Assembly: GCA_002698785.1 (NCBI GenBank)
Contig: PAAG01000049.1
Span: 62,001 to 126,000, forward strand
Direction: 5' to 3'
Length of the DNA: 64,000 bases
DNA from: Verrucomicrobiales bacterium
GTDB lineage: Bacteria > Verrucomicrobiota > Verrucomicrobiia > Verrucomicrobiales > DEV007
A program made the translations under genes and the position numbers. Under the pieces are notes generated by a model. It ran no database searches. It worked only from the letters and a program-made list of their open reading frames with translations, and was not told where the DNA came from. Shown here piece after piece: positions 3-63,162 of the stretch (its first letter is position 1; each line of letters opens with the position of its first letter).

Positions 3-794
3 CAGCTCCTGGAGAGCGAGCTATTCGGTCATGAACGTGGAGCTTTCACCGGCGCAATGGAGAGAAGAATCGGACGATTCGAAGAAGCCAACGGAGGCAC
101 ACTCTTTCTCGATGAGATCGGCGAGATCGATCTCAATGTGCAGGTCAAGTTGTTGCGCGCCATTGGCGAACGTACCATTGAACGCCTGGGCTCGAACAAG
201 CCGATCAAGGTCGATGTTCGCGTGGTAGCAGCAACGAACAAAGACCTGAGCGAGATGGTGAAGGAAGGGACATTTCGCGATGACCTTTTCTTTCGCCTGA
301 ATGTGGTGTCCATCCACATGCCTCCACTCCGGACACGGAAAGAAGACATCGTGCTTCTCGTTGATTCATTCCTGAAGGAGTTCGCCGAGGAGAATGGAAA
401 AGGCACCATGGAGTTGACCAACGACGCCCTCCAGCTACTGCTGGAATACGACTGGCCCGGTAACGTCCGAGAGCTGCGCACCGCAATCGAGCACGGGGTC
501 GTCATGGCCAACGGAAGCAAGATCGGAATCCGGCATCTTCCTACTTTCCTCACCGATGACTCCCATCGAGGATTTCGCCAGAAACCCGCTGCCGGCACTT
601 CGGCTCCCTCCACTAAGAGCGACGAGTCCCTCATCGATTCGGATGATCTAAACCTCGCCCGCATCGAGCAGAAAATGATCCGCATTGCCCTCGACCGCAC
701 GGGTGGCAATCGCACCGAGGCCGCTACATTACTGGGAATTTCCCGACGCACGATGCAGCGAAAACTCAAAGAGATGGGCCTCATCGATGGCTGA
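3..794 (+). CDS. sigma-54 dependent transcriptional activator, C-terminal part (5' truncated by window)
   Basis: Enhancer-binding activator of the NtrC/AtoC kind that uses ATP to open sigma-54 promoters. The frame is open from base 3, so the receiver domain and Walker A lie outside the window. Visible are the sigma-54 contact loop GAFTGA (fragment residues 13-18), Walker B (LFLDE, D37-E38), the sensor region [11 protein letters not shown], the conserved WPGNVREL segment, and a Fis-type helix-turn-helix in the last 30 residues ([20 protein letters not shown]). The family is normally about 450 residues; about 263 are here. A hairpin follows the stop codon within 10 bases. Regulon unknown; assignment of the family is secure. 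Confidence 0.93.
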
Positions 795-865: not shown

Positions 866-1120
866 ATGACTGACGACATCCCCGAAACTTCTGCAGCGCG
901 TAGACTCACAGCATATTCCTACCTGGTAGTATTCGCCAACGATGGGACAATCGATGAGGGGGAACTTGCCCTTCTCAAAAAGATCGCGCTCGAAGACCAC
1001 ATCGTCGATGAAGCAGAAAAAGATGTTCTTCGCCGAATCTTCTCTCGTGTCTCCAAAGACACGGTAACTGAGAAAGTCTGGGAAAAGATCGAGGCTTTCC
1101 GGTCGAAACACGAGATCTGA
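866..1120 (+). CDS. small TerB-like helical protein
   Basis: 84-residue acidic protein, predicted all-helical, without signal peptide or membrane segment. The pattern FANDGTIDEGELALLKKIAL, followed by a second acidic turn (VDEAEKDVL) and a helix, resembles the metal-binding repeats of TerB/DjlA-type domains, but it is half the usual TerB length, so the assignment is tentative. It lies 121 bases upstream of, and codirectional with, the AAA+ release-factor-like fusion gene and could be its partner. No catalytic motif is visible. Confidence 0.6.
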   Translation: MTDDIPETSAARRLTAYSYLVVFANDGTIDEGELALLKKIALEDHIVDEAEKDVLRRIFSRVSKDTVTEKVWEKIEAFRSKHEI

Positions 1121-1241: not shown

Positions 1242-4127
1242 ATGCCGCTTGATGACAGCATCCGAAATACTCTGGAGAGTTACGGAATCGTTCGGGACGA
1301 TTTCGACGAGTTCCCCATAGCACTGGGATACGAGACCCAGGTCGATCAGCTGGTCGACCACATCGAGAAGTCGGCGAAAAAATCGCTCATTCTGATGGGC
1401 GAATCCGGAGTTGGTAAATCGACAATTCTGCGAGAGGCTTTTCGCCTTCTCAGCTATACCGGATGGAGCGTGGTAGAGACCTCGACGGCCGAGATCATGC
1501 GCGGCACGAGTTATCTGGGCGAGTGGCAGACCCGAACGACCCAGCTCGCCGACATAGCTTCCGCCGATCTGCAGGTGCTGATTTATGTGACGGACATTCA
1601 CAACCTTCGCGACACCGGAAAGAGTTCGGCAAGTAAGGACAACATGGCCGATGCCCTCATGCCCTATCTGCAGCGCGGAGACATTGTCCTGGTGGGAGAG
1701 TGCACGCCAGAAACCTTCCGCCACGGTTTCGAAAGCTCCCCTACTCTTCAAAGGCAAGTCAGTGTATTCCGAGTGCCTCCGGTAGAGAAAGAAAAAGCGA
1801 GAGAGATTCTCCACTCCGCCTACGAGACGATTCGGTCAGAATTTGAATCCACCTGCGGATGCAGCCTGGAACTCTCCGCAGTAACCCTGACAAGCCTCGA
1901 ACAACAGGGCGGGATCTACTTTCCCTCCATCGCTCAACCGGGCGCATCGATTGAGCTCCTCCGAAAAGTCGTGGAGACAAAACGAAGGGAGATCGAAGCA
2001 ATACCACAGAGAAAACGCCCCGCTGTCGTCGACCTGACGCAGGGTGATATCGTCAATACCCTGCACGAGATTTCCGGCCTGCCCGTTCATCTGCTCGACG
2101 ACCGAATTCCCCTCGATCTGAAAAAGACTCGTGAGTTTTTCGACACCCGTATTATCGGGCAGAACGAAGCCGTCACGACAGTGATCGACATCGTTACGTT
2201 AGTGAAGGCTGGACTTACCGATCCGGGCAAGCCGACCAGCATCATGATGTTCGCGGGGCCGACCGGTGTCGGCAAAACCGAGCTAGCCAAAGCACTCGCC
2301 GAATTCCTCTTCGGATCTCCGGATCGCATGATCCGTTGCGATATGTCCGAGTACAAGGACTACCACTCGTACGAGAAATTTATCGGTGCGAAGAGAGATG
2401 AGAATGATTCCACCAGCCTTATCAGCCAGGTTCGGCGCCAGCCATTCTCCGTTGTCCTACTCGACGAGGTAGAAAAAGCGAATCCCAACATTTTCGACGT
2501 GCTACTGCAGGCCTTCGATGACGGGCGACTAACCGATGCACAGGGAAATACCGGAGACCTGACCCAGACGATCATCATCATGACGTCGAACCTGGGAAGC
2601 GACCTTTCGGCTCCGCCGCCTGTGGGTTTCGATTCCGAACTCCCCGATTCATCCGAGCTTGTCGGCAAGGCGCTGCGCAATTTCTTCCGCCCCGAGTTTC
2701 TCAATCGCATCGATCACGTCGTTCGCTTCCAGCCGTTAAAACGCGAAGACATCCGCACCCTCGCAAAACGCGAACTGGGCAAAGCGCTTCTTCGAAACGG
2801 AATCGTGCGCCGAGAGCTTCGCGTAACCGTCGATCCCGAGGTCCACGATCTTCTGGCAGAGAAGGGCTACGATGCAAAATTCGGTGCTCGCCCGCTGCGC
2901 CGTCAGGTTGAGAAACTCGCCATTCTTCCCGTGGCGAGGGAGATCATTGCCCTGGAGGAGATGGACAAGGGCTCCCTTCTTCGCCTTCAGGTGAAAGAGG
3001 GGGCGATCGACGTCAATATCCTAGCAGACCGACAAACTCACACAGCGCGCAGAATTGCCGGAGGCGTCCCTGTAGAGGATCCGCTGCATGGAACAAAGAA
3101 GAAAATCCGCCCTGTCGATCTGGCGGAAACGCTGAAAAAATTCGAAGGCCATATCGAAGCCCTGGAAGACCGCAGTGACGAGGAGGAACTCGCCGAACGG
3201 AAATCCGAATTGCTTGCTCTATCAGGTAAAGCGGACTTCTGGGACGATCAAGCGAGGGCGCGCGAAGTCCTCAGTGATATCTACCGCCTTGAGAGATTGA
3301 TCGAAGCCATCGCAAAATCCAAGCAGCGGCACGAGGCCCTGACAAGGCAACTCGAAGCCATCCAGAGGAATCCAACCGAATCCGCGTTCAAGAAGCTCGC
3401 GCTCGACCTTCGCTCCCTCGGTCATTTCGTGGAACTCGTTCGCTTTGCCATGGAATGCCAGGATCGCGAAGACAGGCGCGACACCTTTATTGCGATTCGA
3501 CTGGTCGACGAATCATCTGAATCTGATCTGGTTTTCAAACTAGCAGAGACCTACCTGCAGTGGGCGTCTCGCATGCAGTATGGTTTTCGCGTGATTCACG
3601 AAGAAGAAGCCAACGCCACCTGCCTCCGGGAAGTGGTGCTCGAAATTTCCGGACCTGCTGCCCATGGCATTTTCCATGGCGAAGAAGGCGAGCACGAATT
3701 CGTGTTTGGGAAAACGAGCCGCCAGCCGCGGCGAAATCGCTTTGTCAGTGTTCGTGTCCTCGGCACCCCTGCCACGGAGGACTTGCAGTCAGTGCAGGTG
3801 AGAAAGAAAGCGGCGAAAGCGAAATCGCGATTTGGTAAGGGGATCCGCACCCGCACTACTGCCACGCAGGGGCAACGCAGCGTCGAGATACTCAATTCTT
3901 TCCAAGGCACCGAAGCTGATGAAACCGCCGAGGCACTCCTTGCAGCAGAGGTAGAGCACTGTGACAAATCGAAGGACTCTTCGACCGTCATTCGGAAATA
4001 TCAGATGAGCCCCACGGCCTCAATCAAAGACCAGCGGGTTCCTGATGTCGATATCTCACCACGCTCTTTCTGGCGTGGTGACATCGATGAGCTTCTCCAT
4101 GCCGTGATCTCTTCTCAGAGTGAATAG
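1242..4127 (+). CDS. ClpA/B-type double AAA+ ATPase fused to an RF2-like release-factor module
   Basis: 961-residue protein. Residues about 20-270 form a Clp D1-type AAA domain with Walker A GESGVGKS (53-60) and an altered Walker B, IYVTDIH (114-120), where Clp proteins have a D-E pair. Residues about 295-600 form an intact Clp D2-type AAA domain: Walker A GPTGVGKT (339-346), Walker B VVLLDEVEKA, sensor MTSNLGS, and the D2 small domain (GARPLRRQVE). The ClpB middle coiled coil and N-domain are absent. Residues about 620-961 follow the layout of class-I release factor 2: helical PCRF segment with the RF2-like FWDD (666-669), a GPAAHGIFHGEEGEHEFV stretch matching the RF2 core strand, then RFVSVRVL, then a segment aligning to the GGQ loop but reading QGQ (876-878), and a terminus (IKDQR...GDIDELL) matching RF2's. 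The RF2 codon-reading SPF tripeptide is not preserved. Known: Clp AAA+ rings unfold proteins and RF2 binds the ribosomal A site. Inferred: a ribosome-directed unfoldase that cannot hydrolyse peptidyl-tRNA. Confidence 0.85.
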   Translation: MPLDDSIRNTLESYGIVRDDFDEFPIALGYETQVDQLVDHIEKSAKKSLILMGESGVGKSTILREAFRLLSYTGWSVVETSTAEIMRGTSYLGEWQTRTTQLADIASADLQVLIYVTDIHNLRDTGKSSASKDNMADALMPYLQRGDIVLVGECTPETFRHGFESSPTLQRQVSVFRVPPVEKEKAREILHSAYETIRSEFESTCGCSLELSAVTLTSLEQQGGIYFPSIAQPGASIELLRKVVETKRREIEAIPQRKRPAVVDLTQGDIVNTLHEISGLPVHLLDDRIPLDLKKTREFFDTRIIGQNEAVTTVIDIVTLVKAGLTDPGKPTSIMMFAGPTGVGKTELAKALAEFLFGSPDRMIRCDMSEYKDYHSYEKFIGAKRDENDSTSLISQVRRQPFSVVLLDEVEKANPNIFDVLLQAFDDGRLTDAQGNTGDLTQTIIIMTSNLGSDLSAPPPVGFDSELPDSSELVGKALRNFFRPEFLNRIDHVVRFQPLKREDIRTLAKRELGKALLRNGIVRRELRVTVDPEVHDLLAEKGYDAKFGARPLRRQVEKLAILPVAREIIALEEMDKGSLLRLQVKEGAIDVNILADRQTHTARRIAGGVPVEDPLHGTKKKIRPVDLAETLKKFEGHIEALEDRSDEEELAERKSELLALSGKADFWDDQARAREVLSDIYRLERLIEAIAKSKQRHEALTRQLEAIQRNPTESAFKKLALDLRSLGHFVELVRFAMECQDREDRRDTFIAIRLVDESSESDLVFKLAETYLQWASRMQYGFRVIHEEEANATCLREVVLEISGPAAHGIFHGEEGEHEFVFGKTSRQPRRNRFVSVRVLGTPATEDLQSVQVRKKAAKAKSRFGKGIRTRTTATQGQRSVEILNSFQGTEADETAEALLAAEVEHCDKSKDSSTVIRKYQMSPTASIKDQRVPDVDISPRSFWRGDIDELLHAVISSQSE

Positions 4128-4128
4128 G

Positions 4129-5556
4129 TCACGCGAGGAGGTCGTGAATCACATGCCCTTCAACATCGCTGAGACGAACGTCGCGCCCCGCATAGCGGAA
4201 TGTCAGGTCTTCGTGCTCGACTCCCATCAGGTGAAGCACTGTCGCCCAGAGATCGTAAACGCTCATCTTGTTCTCCGTCACATGGTAACCGAACTCATCG
4301 GTGGCACCGTAAATTGATCCCGCTTTCGATCCTCCCCCTGCCATCCAGATGGAAAAGCCGAACGGATTATGGTCCCGACCATCACTCCCCTGACTGAACG
4401 GGGTCCTACCAAACTCTCCAGCCCAGATCACAAGAGTCTCGTCGAGCAATCCGCGCTGTTTCAAATCGGTCAATAATCCCGCGATCGGTTGATCGACCTG
4501 CTCCGACATATTGCGATGCCCTGACTCCAACCCGCCATGTTGGTCCCATGGATTTGCCGCCTGACTTCCGCCCGGCTTCTGGGGGAGACAGCTCAGTTCA
4601 ATAAAGCGAACTCCCCGCTCTACCAATCGCCGAGCCAAAAGAGCCTGACGCCCGTACGCGCGAGTCATGGGATTCTTTGCTTCAAAACCATAGAGCCGCT
4701 TCGTCGCATCCGACTCGCCGGTGATTTCGCACAGTTCCGGAACTGCGGACTGCATCCGGTAGGCCGTTTCGTAATTTCGAATGGCGGCTTCCACTTCAGC
4801 ATCGTGGCCGGTCTGAGTCATGAACTTCGAATCTACTGATCGAATGAAATCCAATCTCGAACGCTGGATTTCATCCCGCTCGCGAGGAAGGACGTTTCGC
4901 ACAGGCTCTTCCGCATCGACTTGAATCAATGAAGCCTGATGCTGTGCCGGCAGAAAACCACTACTCCACTGCCCCACCCCACCATGAGGAATACCGGACT
5001 CTCCGCTACGGAGAACGACGTAGCCAGGCAGGTTATTATTTTCCGTTCCGAGCCCGTAACTACACCATGCACCGGCACTGGGATGACCGATAAAGGGAAA
5101 ACCCGTATGGAAGAAGAAATTCCCCTGCGCGTGCTCATTGACGTTGCTCGTCATGGAGCGAATCACACACAGATCATCCGCACACTGTTCGCGAAGGTGG
5201 GGAAACATCGTTGAAATGGGAATCCCGCTTTGGCCGCTTTCTTTAAACTCAAACGGACTGCCGAAGATGTTCCCGTTGTTGTTGAACTGCGTCCGCTCGA
5301 CTTTTACTGGCATCGGCTGGCCATGCATCTCGCGCAGTTTTGGCTTCGGGTCGAAAGAGTCAATGTGAGAGACTCCCCCGGACATGTAGCAGAGAATGAC
5401 GTGCTTCGCCTTCGGTTTGAAATCGGGATTGGTCGCCATCTTCCCGATCGCCGCCGCTGAATTCTCACGCCCGAGCATTCCTGACAGAGCCATCATTCCG
5501 AACCCGGAACTCACCCGGCTCAGCATTTCTCTTCGTGAAGGGTTGAAAGTGTTCAT
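4129..5556 (-). CDS. DUF1501 secreted protein (sulfatase-fold)
   Basis: 475 residues. The N-terminus carries a twin-arginine-like signal ([20 protein letters not shown]), as in the DUF1501 family, which has an alkaline-phosphatase/sulfatase-like fold and is greatly expanded in planctomycetes and verrucomicrobia. Family landmarks seen are [17 protein letters not shown], the internal GEFGRTP motif and DHNPFGFS. The gene begins 4 bases after the end of the PSD1 cytochrome gene, the standard partner of DUF1501 proteins, so the two are cotranscribed and probably act together at the cell surface. Substrate is unknown; the genus-level literature suggests sulfated polysaccharide breakdown for such pairs. 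It ends tail-to-tail, 1 base from the AAA+ fusion gene. Confidence 0.9.
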
Positions 5557-5560
5557 GGGA

Positions 5561-8500
5561 TTACTGGAGGTAGATAAATTCTTTCAGGTTGAAGATCGCA
5601 TGAGCGAGATCCTGCCATCGCCGCTCTTGAAGTGGCTGGTTAGAACCGAGCGCCACGAGTTTGTCCCGCCGGGATTCCAGCTCGGAGATTTTGGCTTCCA
5701 GAGCCGACCGTTTTTCCAGAGCTTCCGGGCTGAGCGCTTCTGTCACAGATCTTTCCGAAACGAACAATCTGGCCGAAGAAAACGATGCCATCACCTCGTC
5801 GGCCGCAAGAGCCCGATCATACAATCGCGCTTCAAAAATACGTCCCTGAATCGGCTTATTCCCCTGCACTCCTTTTCCGTGGCGAAGCCCGAAGAGAACC
5901 TCCGACTGGTTCGCCGGGTAGACTTTCACAGGCGCTTTTCGAATCGGATCCCCCCACTTCTCTCCATCACGATAGCAGGTGATCGTTCCGTCTTTTTCGT
6001 AGGTAATTGTCAGGTGCACTGGCCGCTCTAACGCTTCCATCTCGGCAGGCGCGCCGAAATCCAGAGTTCGAACGTGGCGTTCACTACCTGACAGCCATTC
6101 CCCGTTTTTGCGCTCCGCAAATACTATGCTGTCGAATTCGTTTCCTCCGAGATTTTGGACTGTCATTACGCCGCCGCCCTTCTGCGTGAGGTTGTCCAAT
6201 TGAACCACCGCCTCGAGCGTCTTCTCGGTAAGATCAACGTCCAACGGCTGAGTACTCACAAATCCATTTCCGTCTACTACGAGAGCGCCTTCCTCCAAGC
6301 GAGCTGTGCCGTGCAGAGTTCCGCTCATTTCCCCGACCTTGTCTGCCACATCATCTTCAAAATCCCAGAAAGCAACCGGCTCCAGCCCGATGGCAGGGAA
6401 GGCATCTTCACCCAACTCAGCAAAGGCTTTCTTTTTCTCTTCCAGCAGTCGAGCACGAACCGGATCGACGATTCCCGCGAGTGCCTCCCGTGCGTGAGAA
6501 AGCTCGCTCTCTATCTGGGTGAACTTCTCCGCATTCACGGCGTGATCTGCATCGATCGCCTCAAGAAATGCGATTGCCTTTTCGAGCTCCAGCTCACTCG
6601 GCTCCCGGTTCAGAGCCTTCAGGAACATCGTGCGGATTTTCTCTTTCTCGCTCGCTGTTTCAGGAAGTTTCTTTGCCCAACTACCCGCTTTCTTGATGAT
6701 AAACGGATCGTTCAAAAGAGTCAGTGACTGCGCGGGAACGTTTGTTGAATCCCTGCGACCTACCGTCGAAGCCGGAGTGGGGAAATCGAAGGTCGTCAGC
6801 AGCGGGTCGAGATTATTTCGCTTCACCTTGAGATAGATGGAGCGGCGGGGCGTGTCACCACCCACGGGTCCACCAAACATCTTCTCATCCAGATCACCTG
6901 ACACAGCCAGAATCGAATCGCGAATTGCCTCCGCTTCCAGACGCTGAACGGAATAGTGGGACAACAACTTGTTTCCCGGATCCTGCGCAAGGCTTTCCTT
7001 GCTCGGCAAACTCGCCTGCTGCCACGTATCCGAAAGAACGATTTCTCGGATGAGGGATTTCATCGACCAGTCCTGCTTCTCACGAAACTGCGAAGCGAGA
7101 TAATCCAGAAGCTCAGGATGAGAAGGCTCTTCCCCCAGGCGACCGAAATTATCCGCAGTGGGAACCAAACCCTGTCCGAACAGGTGATGCCAGATGCGAT
7201 TCACGATCACCCTTGCCGTAAAAGGGTTGTCGTCACGGAGCATATCGCGAGCGAAATCCAATCGTCCTGACCCAGACGGGTTATACGGCGTCGAATCAAG
7301 TTCCTCCAGAAACCTGCGAGGAACAGGATCGCCCGGTTCCTTATGATTGCCGCGAACAAAAAGTGGATAGTCTCGCCCAGGGCGCTCAATCAGCCCGGGC
7401 GCACGAGTCGGCTGAGGGATTTCCCCCTCAAGCTTTCGATACTCAACGACAAGCGCCTTCAAACTCCCTTTCAAGTCGCTCATGCGGTTTGGCAAAACAC
7501 CCGCTCGAACGATCCCATCCAGAAACAGCGCCTCGGAGTCCGTCAATTCCTGACCGGCTCCCCATTTTTCGATGACCAAAGCGAGAGCTCTTTGGTAATG
7601 CTGTACGCCTTCTTCAAAAGTCGTGGGGACTTTTGTTTCCCTACCAAAAACAGGAGCGAGTTTCTCATCTTTCGAAGGCGCAGGGGCCTCCGCACCCTTT
7701 TCTACCAACCAGGCCTCGCGGATTCCGAACCATGACCGCTCTTTGCTGCTGGTGTGAATTGGCGCCTCCCCTGCCGTCGTCAGTTCCAAGTGAACCCGGT
7801 CACCATCCCAGTAGTCCAATCGATCGTATTTCACCCATCGCCAATCCCCTTTTTCCAGCTCAGTGATTGGGTAAACGGTCCCACGACGAGGATAGTGCTG
7901 CACAGCGTAGCGGGCCGTGGCAGCATCTCCCGCGACCGATAGAAACAGGTCATACTTGCCGTCCAGATCGAGCGGTGGAGAGGCAAGCATACCGCGGTGT
8001 TTCGTTGAAAACTGGTGGGAATAGACTCCGGCAGGAAGCACCGACTGAATGACGGCATCGCCAGATCCCACCACAAATTCTCCGGCCCTGGCAAACGCAC
8101 TTTTTTCCAGACCTTCTCCAACAGCTGTCCATTCGGTCACTTCATCAGGATCAGACAATTCCCACTTCCGCCGAACCTTTGTTTCACTTTTCTTTTTGTC
8201 TGCTTCCGACTGACGATCATGATAACGCTGCTCAAACATCTTCCACCGCTCCGCCACATCTTCCGGCCCGTTCGCCGACTCCAGATAGTGTAACGCGTGA
8301 AGAACGTGTTCGGTCGAGAACGCCTCCTTGGCTGCCTTTTTCCAACGTTTGCTATCAGAAAAGCTCTGGCTCCAATACTTCGCGATCTCTTTCCTGATCT
8401 TCGGCTTCAGCTCCGCGAGAGCATCCCGATTCGTTTCCAACACTCCGGGAGCATCTACTGCAACCGTTGCCGGAAGAGCTGCGGTAAAGATGCCGAACAG

Positions 8501-9625
8501 AGAATAGTAATCCGCCTGACTGATCGCATCAAACTTGTGGTTATGGCAACGAGCACACGACACGGTTAGCCCCATAAATCCTTTGGTCACCGAGTTGATC
8601 TGATCGTCCGTAAAACGCACCCGTTCGTCCAGCGCATCGGTAGGAGCGAATCCGTGAAAGACCATTCGCAGGTGAGCCGTTCCGATAGCACTCTCATTGA
8701 GACCCAGCTCTTCGTTAATTCTTGGGTTTTCCAGGAGATCACCCGCGAGATGTTCGAGCACCAACTGGTCGTAGGGAATGTCCTCGTTCCAGGCACGAAT
8801 GAGATAATCTCGATATCTCCATGCGTGGGGAATGTCAGGATCGCCCTCACTGCCATGCGAATCCGCATAGCGAGTCCAATCCATAAAATGACGCGCCCAC
8901 TTTTCTCCAAAAGCAGGATCATCCAGATAGCTTGCGACCCGTTCTTTAATGGCTTTGTCAGGATCTTTTTCCCACGCGGCAAGGAATGCCTCGGACTCCT
9001 CCCTAGTTGGTGGAAGACCGACCAGATGAAAGGCAAGACGACGATGAAGTGTTCGCGGGTCAGCTTTGGGAGAAACGGACAATCCTTCCTCATTCAATCG
9101 TTTCTGGATGAATCGGTCGATGGGTTCTTCACTCGTCCCCACCTGAGGCACTTCCGGCTTTTTGATCGGTTGGAAGCTCCACCACTGGGCACGTCGAGCA
9201 GATATCGCTTCCCAGTTGGTATCTTTTTCCAACTGCTCTTTCGTCGGAGGAGCATCCCTCGGATCAGGAGCACCCATGGAAATCCACTTTCGGAAATCGC
9301 TCACGATCGACTCATCCAACTTTGCCCCGGCTTTCGGCATCTGGAGATCTTCCAGCTCGTGCGAGATAGTCTGCAAGAGAAGGCTCTGCTCAGGTGAGCC
9401 GGGCACAATCGCATCGCCAGACTCCCCTCCTTTTTGCCACCCAACTCGTGAATCGAGTAGCAGCCCTCCTTTCGACTTCGTTGCTTCCGAATGACACTCG
9501 TAACATTCCTGAGCCAGGATCGGACGAATCCGCGACTCGAAGAATTCGACTTCGTCCGGCTTCAGTTCCACTCCGAAGGCCGGAGCGAAGAGAAGCATTG
9601 TCAGGGTAAAAGCCAAACCTCTCAT
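5561..9625 (-). CDS. PSD1 / planctomycete cytochrome c protein with DUF1549, DUF1553 and LamG-like domain
   Basis: 1354-residue exported protein with a signal peptide (about residues 1-18). Order of parts: planctomycete cytochrome c domain with haem motif CYECH (41-45); DUF1549 (PSCyt2) from about residue 165, containing a second CxxCH (CARCH); DUF1553 (PSD1) from about residue 770 ([19 protein letters not shown]); and, inserted near the C-terminus (about 1120-1290), a concanavalin/LamG-like sandwich starting FWDFEDD. The LamG-like part suggests glycan binding. It overlaps the IclR gene by 4 bases (ATGA) and is followed after 4 bases by DUF1501, so the three form one operon. The reaction catalysed is unknown; two c-type haems imply periplasmic redox chemistry. 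Confidence 0.9.
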
Positions 9626-15637: not shown

Positions 15638-16153
15638 ATGAGCGAGCAACATTCTCATCCTGGCCACAATGGTCCTGATGAAGAGTTGGAGGCCCTCCTG
15701 AAAAAATTGGAGCCTACATCTCTGGACCCGGATCTTATGGCCCGACTACAACGGGATCACGAGGCTGTGTCCACGTCGAACGCTTACGATCCGACGCGAG
15801 TGCACTGGCGTCGTGTGATTCCGCTCACCCTCGCCTGCTGTGCGGTAATGGCGGGTTATATCTTCTATCAATCTCGCCCTCCTCAGGAACAAGCGCAGCC
15901 AACCGTGGCAGAACGAGGCCCAGTCCCAGTGGAAACTACGTCCTCGATCGAGCGCTTCGAACCCGTTTCAGCCCAAGGTTACCTGATCAACACTTCTTCG
16001 GGTGGAGTTGTCCACACGGAGGAAGGGCCCCAAGAGAAGATGGAGCTCGAATATCGCGATGCCTACCATTGGCGAGACCCTCAAACAGGCACAAACATCC
16101 GATTTTTTCAGCCTCGCAAAGAAGAGCTGATTGTCCCCATTCCAACAGACTAA
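15638..16153 (+). CDS. single-pass membrane protein, anti-sigma-like layout
   Basis: 171 residues: a charged cytoplasmic N-terminus (about 1-60), one membrane helix (about 63-82, VIPLTLACCAVMAGYIFY), then a periplasmic part of about 90 residues. The layout resembles membrane anti-sigma factors, but no zinc HxxxCxxC motif or adjacent sigma gene is seen, so the role is unproven. It is followed after 27 bases by a PDZ protein; the two are probably cotranscribed and both extracytoplasmic. Confidence 0.65.
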   Translation: MSEQHSHPGHNGPDEELEALLKKLEPTSLDPDLMARLQRDHEAVSTSNAYDPTRVHWRRVIPLTLACCAVMAGYIFYQSRPPQEQAQPTVAERGPVPVETTSSIERFEPVSAQGYLINTSSGGVVHTEEGPQEKMELEYRDAYHWRDPQTGTNIRFFQPRKEELIVPIPTD

Positions 16154-16180
16154 CACGAAACCTTACTCCCCAGGAAAGCA

Positions 16181-17080
16181 ATGAAACCCTCCCCCCTATT
16201 CTATCTGGCAGCCTCTGCGCTCTTGCTGCCATTCGCACCTCTGCACGCGGAGGATACAGAGGCAGAGAAAACATCTGACACACAAACCTGGCTTGGCGTC
16301 GGAACGACTCCTGTTGCGTCCGTTCTTCGCGATCACCTTGAAATCGAAGAGGGATTCGGAATCCAGATTCAACAGGTCATGAAAGATTCTCCAGCTGCAA
16401 AAGCCGGGCTCACTGAGAACGATATCCTTGTAAAATTCGAAGACCAACTTTTGATCTCCCCAGAGCACCTCTCTTTGTTGGTAAAGCGTCTGGAAAAGGG
16501 CGAAAACGTCTCCCTCACTCTCATCCGTAAAGGTGCCGAGCAAACCGTCGATGTGACACTAGGAGGTATCAAAAAAGATCAACTGGTCCGAAGAGGTGGA
16601 TTTACCAATCCCCACCGGCCGTATGGAAGAGACTGGGAGGAAGCCATGAAGCGCCAGCAGGACCACTGGCAGGACATGATGCAGAAGCAGCGCCCCAAGA
16701 ATCCAGCCCCCCCCAAGAACGAAGAATCCAAGCGAGACGAGTCCAAGCGACCACCTGCCGTTTCCGTCAGACCGGGGTTTCCTGTCCAAGTCTTCGGCTC
16801 AGAAGGAGTGATTAAAATCGATAACCAGGAAGGTGAAGTTACCATCACGCGCAAAGAGGGCGATCACCATATCGAGATCCGGGACCGTGATGGCAAAGTA
16901 GTACACGAAGGTGCCTATGACCCGGAAGCGGGAGTTGAAAGCCTTCCTGAGGCAGCCCGCGAGCAACTCAAGACGATGAAATTGGACGATCTTGAAGTTC
17001 TTGCTCCTCGAAACTCAAAGAAAGAGCCGGAAAAAACCTCGGCACCGAAGCCATCGACAAACGAGGGAGAAGTTCTGTAA
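16181..17080 (+). CDS. exported PDZ-domain protein
   Basis: 299 residues with a signal peptide (MKPSPLFYLAASALLLPFAPLHA). One PDZ domain spans about residues 55-130 (GFGIQIQQVMKDSPAAKAGL ... SLTLIRKG). There is no trypsin-like protease domain, so this is not a complete DegP/HtrA; it may be an adaptor. After a low-complexity, charged, proline-rich linker comes a second small beta-rich segment (VQVFGSEGVIKID ... GEVTITRK). The start has a good ribosome site (AGGAAA, 5 bases upstream). Cotranscribed with the preceding membrane protein. Confidence 0.82.
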   Translation: MKPSPLFYLAASALLLPFAPLHAEDTEAEKTSDTQTWLGVGTTPVASVLRDHLEIEEGFGIQIQQVMKDSPAAKAGLTENDILVKFEDQLLISPEHLSLLVKRLEKGENVSLTLIRKGAEQTVDVTLGGIKKDQLVRRGGFTNPHRPYGRDWEEAMKRQQDHWQDMMQKQRPKNPAPPKNEESKRDESKRPPAVSVRPGFPVQVFGSEGVIKIDNQEGEVTITRKEGDHHIEIRDRDGKVVHEGAYDPEAGVESLPEAAREQLKTMKLDDLEVLAPRNSKKEPEKTSAPKPSTNEGEVL

Positions 17081-60789: not shown

Positions 60790-63162
60790 ATGAAAGCTCG
60801 CCCTACCTTTGCGAAAGGTTACCACCTCTTTTTCGCAGCGTTCCTGACATTTCCTCTTTTCGTAAAAGCTCAGCTTCCTACCTACGAGCAAGACCCTTTC
60901 CGGCAACTCGAAGAAGTCCTCCCCACTCCGAACGACTACCGATCCGCTTCGGGTGCACCCGGTCACGAATACTGGCAGCAGCAGGCGGACTACGATATCG
61001 AAGTCACCCTGGACGACGAAAACCAAAGCATTTCAGGGAAAGAGAAAATCACCTATCACAACAACTCTCCCCTGGCCCTGAATTACCTCTGGTTCCAATT
61101 GGACCAGAACCGCTGGAAGTCCCATTCATTCGGAGAGAAAGCCCGCCCCGCCCCTCGCACACTAGGAGCCAACACCCTCTCCTACAAAGAGCTGAAGGTC
61201 GAAATGGCATTGCAGGACATCGACCACGGATTCGACATTCAGTCTGTAAAGTCCCCAGACGGCACAGACATCGACCACACCATCGTCGACACCATGATGC
61301 GTGTTGATCTGCCCGAACCGCTCAAGCCCGGTGAGAAGACAGAACTCGTCATTGAGTGGAATCACAATCTGAAAGATGCCGTCCTCTACGCGCATCCCGC
61401 CGAGTTTTCCGGAACACGCGCCGGCTTCGAATATTTCGAAGAAGACGGCAATTACATTTATGAGGTCGCCCAGTGGTACCCACGCGTCGCCGCCTACACG
61501 GACGTCAATGGTTGGCAGCACAAACAATTCCTCGGAGGCGGTGAATTCACCCTCGAATTCGGAAACATCAAAGCAGCCATCACCGTGCCTGCCGATCACA
61601 ACGTCGCCGCCACAGGAGACTTTCTCAATCACGAGGAGATCCTGAGCGACACTCACAAACAGCGTCTTGCCGAAGCATGGGAGTCCGAGAAACCGATCTT
61701 CATCACCACCCCCGAAGAAGCAAAAGAAGCCCTCAAGAGCAAGTCCGAGGAAACCCGCACCTGGATCTTCGAGGGAAAAAACGTACGCGACTTTGCCTGG
61801 GCCAGCTCACGCCGATTCATCTGGGATGCCGCAGCCGTACAGATTGGTGAAAACAAGGTATGGGCCATGAGCTTCTACCCTCCCGAAGCCGAGCCGCTAT
61901 GGAGCACTTACTCGACACACGCCATCATTCATACCTTGCAGGTATACTCCCGCCTTTCGTTCGACTACCCCTACCCGAAAGCAATGAGTATCAATGGACC
62001 CGTCAACGGCATGGAATATCCCATGATCTGTTTCAACGGCCCCCGACCGCAGCCCGACGGAACCTACAACCAGCAAAAACGGGACTCCCTCATTAGTGTC
62101 ATCATTCATGAGGTGGGCCACAACTTCTTCCCAATGATTGTCAATTCCGACGAGCGACAGTGGGGCTGGATGGACGAAGGGCTCAACTCCTTCCTCGAAA
62201 CCGTCGCCGAGCAGGAGTGGCACGAATCCTACAATTCCAACTACGGAAACCCCATTCTCCTCGCTCATGTCATCCGGGCTGCTCCCTACGACTTCCGTAT
62301 CATGGAGAGCGCCGACGACCTCCTTAACCTTGGTTACTCTGCCTACATGAAGCCCGCCACCGCACTCATCATCCTTCGGGAAACGATCATGGGCCGCGAG
62401 CTCTTCGATTTCGCCTTCCAGGAATACTCCAAACGCTGGGCATTCAAGCGTCCCGAACCTGCCGACTTTTTCCGTTCAATGGAAGACGCCAGTGGAATGG
62501 ACCTCGATTGGTTCTGGCGAGGATGGTTCTACAGCGATAAGAAAGTGGACCTTTCGATCGCTGGCGTAGCTCAGTACGAAATCGATACCAAAGATCCCGA
62601 AATCGAGAAACCAAAGCAGAAGAAAGCGAAAGAGGAAGAAAAGGCCCGCAATATCACCACGAAGCTCAACAAGGGAGTCACTCACTACACGGACAAATTC
62701 CCCGAGTTGAAGGACTTCTACGAAACCTACGACAAATTTGCTGTCACCGATCAGGACAAGAAGGCCTACGAAGCATTCCTCGCTACCCTCTCCGAAGAAG
62801 ACAAAGAAATCCTCAAATCGCCGAAGAACATCTACCTCATTCAATTTGGTAACCCGGGAGGGCAAGTGATGCCCCTCATCCTGAAAATCACCTACAAAGA
62901 CGGCACTTCGGAGGTGAAGCGCTACCCGGCTCAATCCTTCCGCTACAACTCGGAGTCCGCCAGCAAGTTCCTCCTGACGGACAAAGAAATCACCACGCTC
63001 GAACTCGATCCTTTTCGAGAAACAGCCGATGTCAATGTGGATAACAACTACTGGCCGTCACGCCCCCTTCGTAAGCCCCTGCAGATCACCCCCGAGCCTC
63101 CTACTCCGCCAAACCCCATGCAGCTGCAAAAGGCGGCAAGGGAAGCAGAAAAGGAGCAGTAG
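60790..63162 (+). CDS. exported M1-family metallopeptidase
   Basis: 790 residues from ATG 60790 (MKARPTFAKGYHLFFAAFLTF..., a signal peptide; the longer frame adds 41 residues without one). Gluzincin zinc site HEVGHN (440-445) with the third ligand glutamate at 463 in WMDEGLNSFLE, spacing 18, as in M1 peptidases. Upstream NGPVNGMEYPMI stands in for the GAMEN substrate loop. A lysine-rich, charged insert (about 605-640) separates the catalytic part from a C-terminal beta domain. Periplasmic or surface aminopeptidase-like; specificity unknown. Confidence 0.93.
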   Translation: MKARPTFAKGYHLFFAAFLTFPLFVKAQLPTYEQDPFRQLEEVLPTPNDYRSASGAPGHEYWQQQADYDIEVTLDDENQSISGKEKITYHNNSPLALNYLWFQLDQNRWKSHSFGEKARPAPRTLGANTLSYKELKVEMALQDIDHGFDIQSVKSPDGTDIDHTIVDTMMRVDLPEPLKPGEKTELVIEWNHNLKDAVLYAHPAEFSGTRAGFEYFEEDGNYIYEVAQWYPRVAAYTDVNGWQHKQFLGGGEFTLEFGNIKAAITVPADHNVAATGDFLNHEEILSDTHKQRLAEAWESEKPIFITTPEEAKEALKSKSEETRTWIFEGKNVRDFAWASSRRFIWDAAAVQIGENKVWAMSFYPPEAEPLWSTYSTHAIIHTLQVYSRLSFDYPYPKAMSINGPVNGMEYPMICFNGPRPQPDGTYNQQKRDSLISVIIHEVGHNFFPMIVNSDERQWGWMDEGLNSFLETVAEQEWHESYNSNYGNPILLAHVIRAAPYDFRIMESADDLLNLGYSAYMKPATALIILRETIMGRELFDFAFQEYSKRWAFKRPEPADFFRSMEDASGMDLDWFWRGWFYSDKKVDLSIAGVAQYEIDTKDPEIEKPKQKKAKEEEKARNITTKLNKGVTHYTDKFPELKDFYETYDKFAVTDQDKKAYEAFLATLSEEDKEILKSPKNIYLIQFGNPGGQVMPLILKITYKDGTSEVKRYPAQSFRYNSESASKFLLTDKEITTLELDPFRETADVNVDNNYWPSRPLRKPLQITPEPPTPPNPMQLQKAAREAEKEQ

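Follow-up and report, generated by a model that had tools for sequence, protein, structure and literature searches.

Architecture of the fusion gene

We analyzed a 64,000-nucleotide window of contig PAAG01000049.1 from a Verrucomicrobiales bacterium (positions 62,001 to 126,000; assembly GCA_002698785.1). Close to its start lies a gene for a 961-residue protein, in which a two-ring AAA+ core of the Clp type is followed by a tail derived from release factor 2 (RF2). We refer to this protein and its relatives as Clp-RF2. The gene and its parts, numbered by window position, are as follows.

1242..4127, + strand: Clp-RF2 fusion protein, 961 aa; unbroken open reading frame (ORF) that recurs in relatives
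1320..2009, + strand: D1 AAA ring, approximately residues 27-256; Walker A GESGVGKS and pore-loop tyrosine SYLG kept, Walker B reading VTDIH
1575..1607, + strand: D1 Walker B site, VLIYVTDIHNL (residues 112-122), without the Asp-Glu pair
2028..3011, + strand: D2 AAA ring and small domain, approximately residues 263-590; Walker A GPTGVGKT, Walker B LLDEVEKA, FRPEFLNRID and GARPL kept
2379..2435, + strand: place of the D2 pore loop, residues 380-398, FIGAKRDENDSTSLISQVR; GYVG missing
2622..2630, + strand: VGF tripeptide, residues 461-463; VGF or LGF at the same place in ClpC-like references, not in ClpB-like references
3180..3824, + strand: RF2-like domains 1 and 2, residues 647-861; from Pfam, a curated RF2 model and profile alignment
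3822..3830, + strand: K861-S862-R863; aligned with GGQ in one profile-profile comparison, register uncertain
3867..3875, + strand: QGQ, residues 876-878; more likely part of the hairpin that follows the lost GGQ loop, two alignments disagreeing
3981..4115, + strand: RF2-like C-terminal strand and tail, residues 914-958 (IRKYQ...IKDQR...GDIDELL); from alignment

The original prediction, which read two AAA domains joined to an RF2-like C-terminal region in one gene, was borne out by the unbroken ORF and the domain models. Models of ClpA and ClpB cover both rings, and AAA_2 (residues 331-492, E = 5e-43) and ClpB_D2-small were found by Pfam. The two-ring Clp core thus defined, approximately residues 27-590, also aligned to ClpB chains of the PDB.

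Two further proteins of the genome (359 and 360 aa) have both release-factor domains, and a third (180 aa) has a GGQ domain; the fusion is therefore an extra copy. The 360-aa protein carries SPF and GGQ and is RF2, and the 359-aa protein is presumably RF1.

A conserved family of single-gene fusions

The fusion is real and is part of a conserved family. A survey of homologues yielded 12 single-gene members: the window protein and those of loci L072-L075, L136-L139 and L183-L185. A further member, L140, is interrupted by a contig end and was left out of all alignments. The members have three shapes. The window protein lacks an N-terminal domain, six members have HEAT-like repeats, and five have a hydrophobic N-terminus. 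The HEAT assignment comes from Pfam HEAT_2 in L072 and L073, from a PADLOC HEAT model in L136, and from alignment in the others. The best 19-residue Kyte-Doolittle mean is 2.08-2.74 in the five hydrophobic N-termini vs at most 1.47 in the rest, with starts that were partly chosen (an inner Met was set as the N-terminus of L072, L073, L139, L183 and L185). The Clp-RF proteins of L074, L075, L183, L184 and L185 are probably membrane-anchored, and their GGQ domain is almost wholly deleted.

The recurrence of the join bears on whether it was made in assembly or annotation from two separate genes. The assembly has 60 contigs and a contamination value of 4.97, which would leave room for such an artefact. 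However, the ORF lies unbroken approximately 63 kb inside a 262-kb contig, the same join is found in the 11 other single-gene members, and related operons occur in genomes assembled as single contigs (G744 and G748). The error that the original prediction had named as its own possible undoing is thereby ruled out, and an artefact can be regarded as having a negligible probability.

Only the full-length protein and alignment A1 brought the family to light. A search of 384 genomes of the class with the full-length protein matched single-gene relatives at E values of 1e-105 to 1e-129 and the operon members described below at 1e-79 to 1e-95. With alignment A1, 26 of 288 genomes of the order matched at 1e-160, the window's own included, as did 4 of 5 genomes of one family and 9 of 50 of another at 1e-150; these searches used different thresholds and overlapping samples. 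At 1e-100, 381 of the 387 genomes sampled from the phylum passed, nearly all of them through ordinary Clp, and only G000, G040 and G050 matched A1 over its whole length among the matches listed. The tail alone revealed no second fusion besides that of the window, and no other match below 1e-13, in 56 relatives. Searched together with part of D2 in the 387 genomes, it gave no match below 1e-13 other than the window among the matches listed.

The tail profile A4, run against the 384 class genomes, scored at most 87.7 bits outside five fused genes among the matches listed, mostly in frames of 360-430 aa, and no free-standing decayed RF2 module appeared among them. Three tail matches in long frames (G375, G427 and G502) were considered as further fusions and rejected, being normal RF2 with GGQ and SPF present and no Clp core. 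The long-frame matches covered are these three; G126, G219 and G477 are among those left out. At L199, L200 and L201, normal RF2 frames run on from long upstream open frames (1164, 866 and 641 aa) that hold no Clp core. Searches of plasmids and of viral contigs gave no Clp-RF fusion, and a scan of genome contigs with short exact peptide patterns returned one ordinary ClpB only.

Three-gene operons and tree of the cores

Besides the single-gene form, we observed an operon form with three consecutive Clp-like genes, A, B and C, which share the D1 Walker B defect and the missing D2 pore loop. Whole operons are present at L076, L077, L078, L143, L144, L186, L187, L189, L190 and L192, those of L186 and L187 lying in the single-contig genomes G744 and G748. 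It is possible that the three products form a hetero-ring ATPase. The tails of the A proteins retain a trace of RF2 (hhalign P = 2.7e-5, reversed control 0.28), those of the B proteins gave P = 0.012 (reversed 0.52), and the C proteins extend only approximately 50 residues beyond the GARPL motif.

In an unrooted tree of 48 cores, a branch of length 1.05 (support 100/100) separates the family from the 19 reference rows. A, B and C each form one branch (100/99, 100/99 and 100/100), and the single-gene members lie on one side of a branch with support 96/88. The row of the window protein is long (1.1), and its exact place is unsure. The filter for length or motifs removed L105 from the references.

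A distinctive pattern of motor residues

The motor residues were counted in 50 family members (29 at first and 21 read later), single-gene and operon forms together, and in 19 references. In none of the 50 does the D1 Walker B motif have its Asp-Glu pair, and none has the GY pore loop of D2, which reads GY[V/I/K]G in all 19 references. The D2 Walker B Asp-Glu pair is kept in all 50. The references keep all three features (16/16 ordinary proteins and 3/3 of the X group). The predicted alteration of the D1 Walker B motif to TDIH in the window protein, beside an intact D2 Walker B, is thus correct, the sequence there reading VTDIH. In the B copies of the operons the position is mostly Asp-Asp, with Glu-Asp in L189 and L190. 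The pore-loop tyrosine of D1 is kept in 12/12 single-gene members.

Having a Walker A motif but no Walker B Asp-Glu pair, D1 is likely to bind ATP and to drive assembly. The hydrolysis residues are intact in D2, from which we infer that it hydrolyzes ATP, but its aromatic pore loop has been lost. The protein had been proposed to be an unfoldase. A Clp-type ATPase it is, but the unfolding part of that description is weakened because the D2 aromatic loop and the D1 Asp-Glu pair are missing throughout the family.

An xGF tripeptide between the MTSN and FRPEF motifs, which may be a ClpP-docking loop of the ClpA/C type, was found in 11/12 single-gene proteins (VGF in the window protein), 10/12 A, 11/12 B, 8/11 C and 3/3 X proteins; the A copies of L188, L189 and L191 were left out of this count. 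Six of 16 references were counted, five with the tripeptide at the same place and one (L071) with it right beside FRPEF, where it is not the loop. At L079 (8488-10893), L080 (8954-11335) and L081 (9287-11632), we observed a further group of Clp-like ATPases of 781-801 aa, with intact motor motifs and varied neighbors.

Descent of the tail from RF2

In the window protein, the Pfam family PCRF matches residues 652-819 above its cut-off (E = 7e-14), and TIGR00020 (prfB) matches residues 632-858 with an E value of 7e-25, below that model's cut-off for a full protein; RF1 models gave 6e-10 and weaker on the same tail. The resemblance to RF2 had been traced from FWDD to the terminal GDIDELL, and both motifs are indeed present. 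Against an RF2 profile, the window tail scored 70.9 bits, compared with at most 7.0 among those reported of 200 shuffled sequences. Eight other tails scored 9.5-30.1 bits, and seven of them exceeded all reported shuffles (200 each). The whole ORFs of L183-L185 scored 10.1, 12.1 and 23.5 bits, a comparison run without shuffles. The prfB model also matches L136, L073 and L185.

Profile-profile comparison of the C-terminal regions with RF2 (hhalign) gave P = 7e-21, or 4e-17 with the window protein left out, compared with 0.1 for the reversed control that included it. When the nine-tail profile A4 was searched against all PDB sequences, only class-I release factors were matched up to an E value of 0.0021 (best 2.4e-26), the first chain of another kind followed at 0.018, and RF2 was matched better than RF1. 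These comparisons indicate that the tail shares common descent with class-I release factors in domains 1 and 2 as well as in its C-terminal part.

A structure model whose alignment included four release factors resembles RF2, but it is biased toward that result and is no independent proof of the fold, and a single-sequence model was unusable, with a predicted local distance difference test score (pLDDT) of 44.8.

The tail is maintained under purifying selection in the three pairs compared. The ratios of nonsynonymous to synonymous substitution rates of tail vs core are 0.11 vs 0.17 for L074/L075, 0.27 vs 0.26 for L183/L184, and 0.25 vs 0.12 for L073/L136, where synonymous sites are near saturation.

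Loss of the catalytic and codon-reading parts

The Pfam family RF-1 (PF00472), which represents the GGQ domain, has matches at E values of 0.001 or better in three genes elsewhere in the genome but none in the fusion gene, and GGQ is absent from 12/12 family tails. The original prediction saw an altered GGQ in the QGQ of the window protein. This part of it was not upheld. Among the 12 tails, QGQ occurs at that region only in the window protein (L139 has it at a different place, in domain 2), so that with GGQ missing from every tail it is not a conserved replacement. Its register is ambiguous. In the hhalign comparison of nine tails with RF2, K861-S862-R863 lies opposite GGQ, and QGQ lies opposite H-F-P of the next hairpin. 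A hidden Markov model of six relatives, with the window protein left out, put QGQ after the strand WRVTAF with posteriors of about 0.7, 0.6 and 0.5 for the three residues and high values before them; four alignments used to build this model gave the same placement each time. MAFFT of nine members set QGQ in the hairpin after the GGQ loop, and the biased structure model has it between strands 869-876 and 879-885, both below a pLDDT of 50. By contrast, the MAFFT alignments A1 and A4 set it before the WRVTAF strand, near the GGQ loop. On balance, QGQ more likely lies in the hairpin that follows the lost loop.

The SPF codon reader is absent, as had been noted, with FGKTSRQPRR aligned at its position in the window protein. 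Domain 3 shrinks stepwise through the family. The distance from GxH to IRxY is 125 in four RF2s, 112-119 in the members with HEAT-like repeats, 100 in the window protein and 40-61 in the members with a transmembrane (TM) anchor. The prediction that the module should not release peptide therefore agrees with the missing GGQ and the shortened domain 3, and we regard the RF2-derived module as one that, judged by its residues, should be release-dead.

Such extensive loss raises the possibility that the RF2 module is a retired scaffold, captured by the fusion and now acting within the Clp ring as an adaptor, a regulatory domain or an oligomerization domain, out of contact with ribosomes. None of the 12 tails has GGQ, SPF or RF2's GAGGTE stretch, the GGQ domain is nearly all deleted in the TM-anchored members, and the RF2 trace is faint in the operon A copies and doubtful in the B copies, as described above. 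However, six members keep a C-terminal tail close to that of RF2 itself (L137, for example, has IRRYDLGIGSRIKDLRTG), and the tail is under constraint, though a scaffold would be too. We consider the retired scaffold a real possibility, only slightly less likely than the docked motor described below.

Among the loci from viral contigs (L146-L179), we observed many short GGQ proteins of approximately 120-220 aa, relatives of release factors, alongside a few proteins of full release-factor size.

Neighboring genes

A domain scan covered ten neighboring proteins plus two beside the window gene. The features around the fusion gene are as follows.

866..1120, + strand: small TerB-like ORF, 84 aa, 121 bp upstream of the fusion gene; Pfam TerB E = 0.015, below cut-off
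Window 3-794 and L082 14168-16795, same strand: PAS-type histidine kinase and sigma-54 response regulator, directly upstream of the TerB-like ORF
4129-9625, - strand: DUF1501 gene adjoining a gene for a 1354-aa protein; L074 and L075 have this pair near their Clp-RF genes as well

The TerB-like gene that had been placed just upstream does exist as an ORF, but its assignment to TerB stays below the Pfam cut-off. No sigma-54 promoter was found near the fusion gene, where the pattern occurs at chance level. A link between DUF1501 and the fusion gene was considered and rejected. The adjacency corresponds to background, because the genome has 52 matches to this family (51 over the cut-off). In other loci, two of the ten scanned neighbors are suggestive. 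In L072, the gene immediately upstream of Clp-RF encodes a PIN-domain protein (6799-7356), and in L076 the gene immediately upstream of the operon encodes a class I tRNA synthetase (15662-17017). Overall, the neighbors neither support nor exclude a link with translation.

The single-gene protein and the A-B-C operon could instead be two forms of a Clp-based system for conflict or stress, with invader or aggregated proteins rather than ribosomes as substrates. The patchy spread (26/288 genomes of the order), the variation of N-terminal parts between HEAT repeats and membrane anchors, and the PIN-domain gene beside L072 are in line with this. PADLOC also matches DolB, which we take to be the ATPase of the Dodola defense system, to the D2 ring (E = 1.9e-32), as it would any Clp ring. 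However, the PADLOC matches of the window protein concern AAA sequence only, and the scanned window neighbors are the response regulator, the TerB-like ORF, DUF1501 and the histidine kinase two genes upstream, in a survey that included no systematic search for defense genes or mobile elements. A conflict or stress role thus seems improbable.

Relation to known systems

The core resembles the Hsp100/Clp proteins ClpA, ClpB and ClpC in having two AAA rings, two Walker A motifs, the D2 Walker B motif, FRPEFLNRID and GARPL, and it shares the xGF loop with the ClpC-like references. Ordinary Clp genes show approximately 35-45% identity to the window protein over D2 among the matches listed. In contrast to them, the family lacks the D1 Asp-Glu pair and the D2 aromatic loop and has the RF2 tail added. 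The window protein has no Clp N-domain among the best 25 of 48 families in its Pfam scan, and its D1 begins near residue 27. The tail resembles PrfB (RF2) in domains 1 and 2 and in the C-terminal strand and tail, RF2 being closer than RF1. It differs in lacking GGQ and SPF, in its shortened or missing domain 3, and in the Clp core attached in 12/12 members.

The survey by Burroughs and Aravind (PMC6514570) counts RF1, RF2, ArfB and PrfH among the bacterial release factors with this fold. There, ArfB and PrfH are release-factor paralogues with uses outside normal termination, described as active or as release factors and without a Clp fusion. The survey also covers Dom34/Pelota, a paralogue of release factors that has lost catalysis and whose targets are stalled ribosomes. 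Dom34/Pelota is a parallel in idea only, since it belongs to another, structurally unrelated release-factor superfamily (aeRF-1). The passages of PMC6514570 considered here mention no Clp fusion, and its main text does not contain the term "clp"; that of PMC7159879 does not contain "release factor". Our literature searches, whose scope mostly excluded subscription papers, found no title or abstract opening that names a Clp-RF2 fusion. What the present analysis adds is the pattern of motor residues shared by the Clp-RF2 family and its three-gene relative; the proteins are still Clp ATPases.

Possible mode of action

We tentatively favor, at somewhat less than even confidence, the view that Clp-RF2 is a dedicated Clp-type AAA+ motor positioned by its C-terminal, release-dead RF2-derived module. 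The tail would dock the motor where RF2 binds, on ribosomes with a free A site or on another partner of RF2, and no peptide would be released. ATP hydrolysis at D2 might then remodel or pull apart the docked complex. Grip would be exerted at most through the D1 loop and not by processive threading through two rings, and the kept xGF loop would leave room for hand-over to ClpP. The ribosome is our first guess as the docking target because RF2 binds there.

Several observations weigh against this view. The tail has lost what RF2 uses to read codons and to reach the peptidyl center, and GAGGTE is missing from 12/12 tails, as is SPF. The TM-anchored members lack most of domain 3, with their GGQ domain nearly all deleted. 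Little known ribosome-contacting sequence is therefore guaranteed to remain, and that the tail docks on ribosomes at all is something we infer from the sequence. The neighbors that recur among the loci are common or unrelated genes only, and neither the tRNA synthetase gene nor the PIN gene is shared. In individual members, the RF2 signal can be weak. The tail of L075 scored 9.5 bits against a shuffle maximum of 12.4 and does not beat chance, so that its membership follows from its place in the alignments and in the tree and from its twin L074 (96% identical), and the prfB model did not reach an E value of 0.01 on L184.

A more specific version is a ribosome-docked AAA+ machine, in which the dead RF2 would put the Clp ring on stalled ribosomes and D2 hydrolysis would extract the nascent chain, or pass it to ClpP, or would split the ribosome, in each case without releasing the peptide. 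Existing either as one protein or as a hetero-ring from three genes, it would be a bacterial counterpart, in function, of Dom34 plus Cdc48. We regard this version as unlikely.

The conserved join hints at an undescribed motor, possibly one acting on ribosomes. If the tail still finds ribosomes, the fusion would tie a Clp motor physically and directly to stalled translation, without a separate adaptor. Without a ribosome role, it would still be a defined branch of Clp in which the usual division of labor is broken, with a D1 that binds ATP and a hydrolyzing D2 that has no grip. In either case, the Clp-RF family makes it testable what a Clp ring does without two threading rings.

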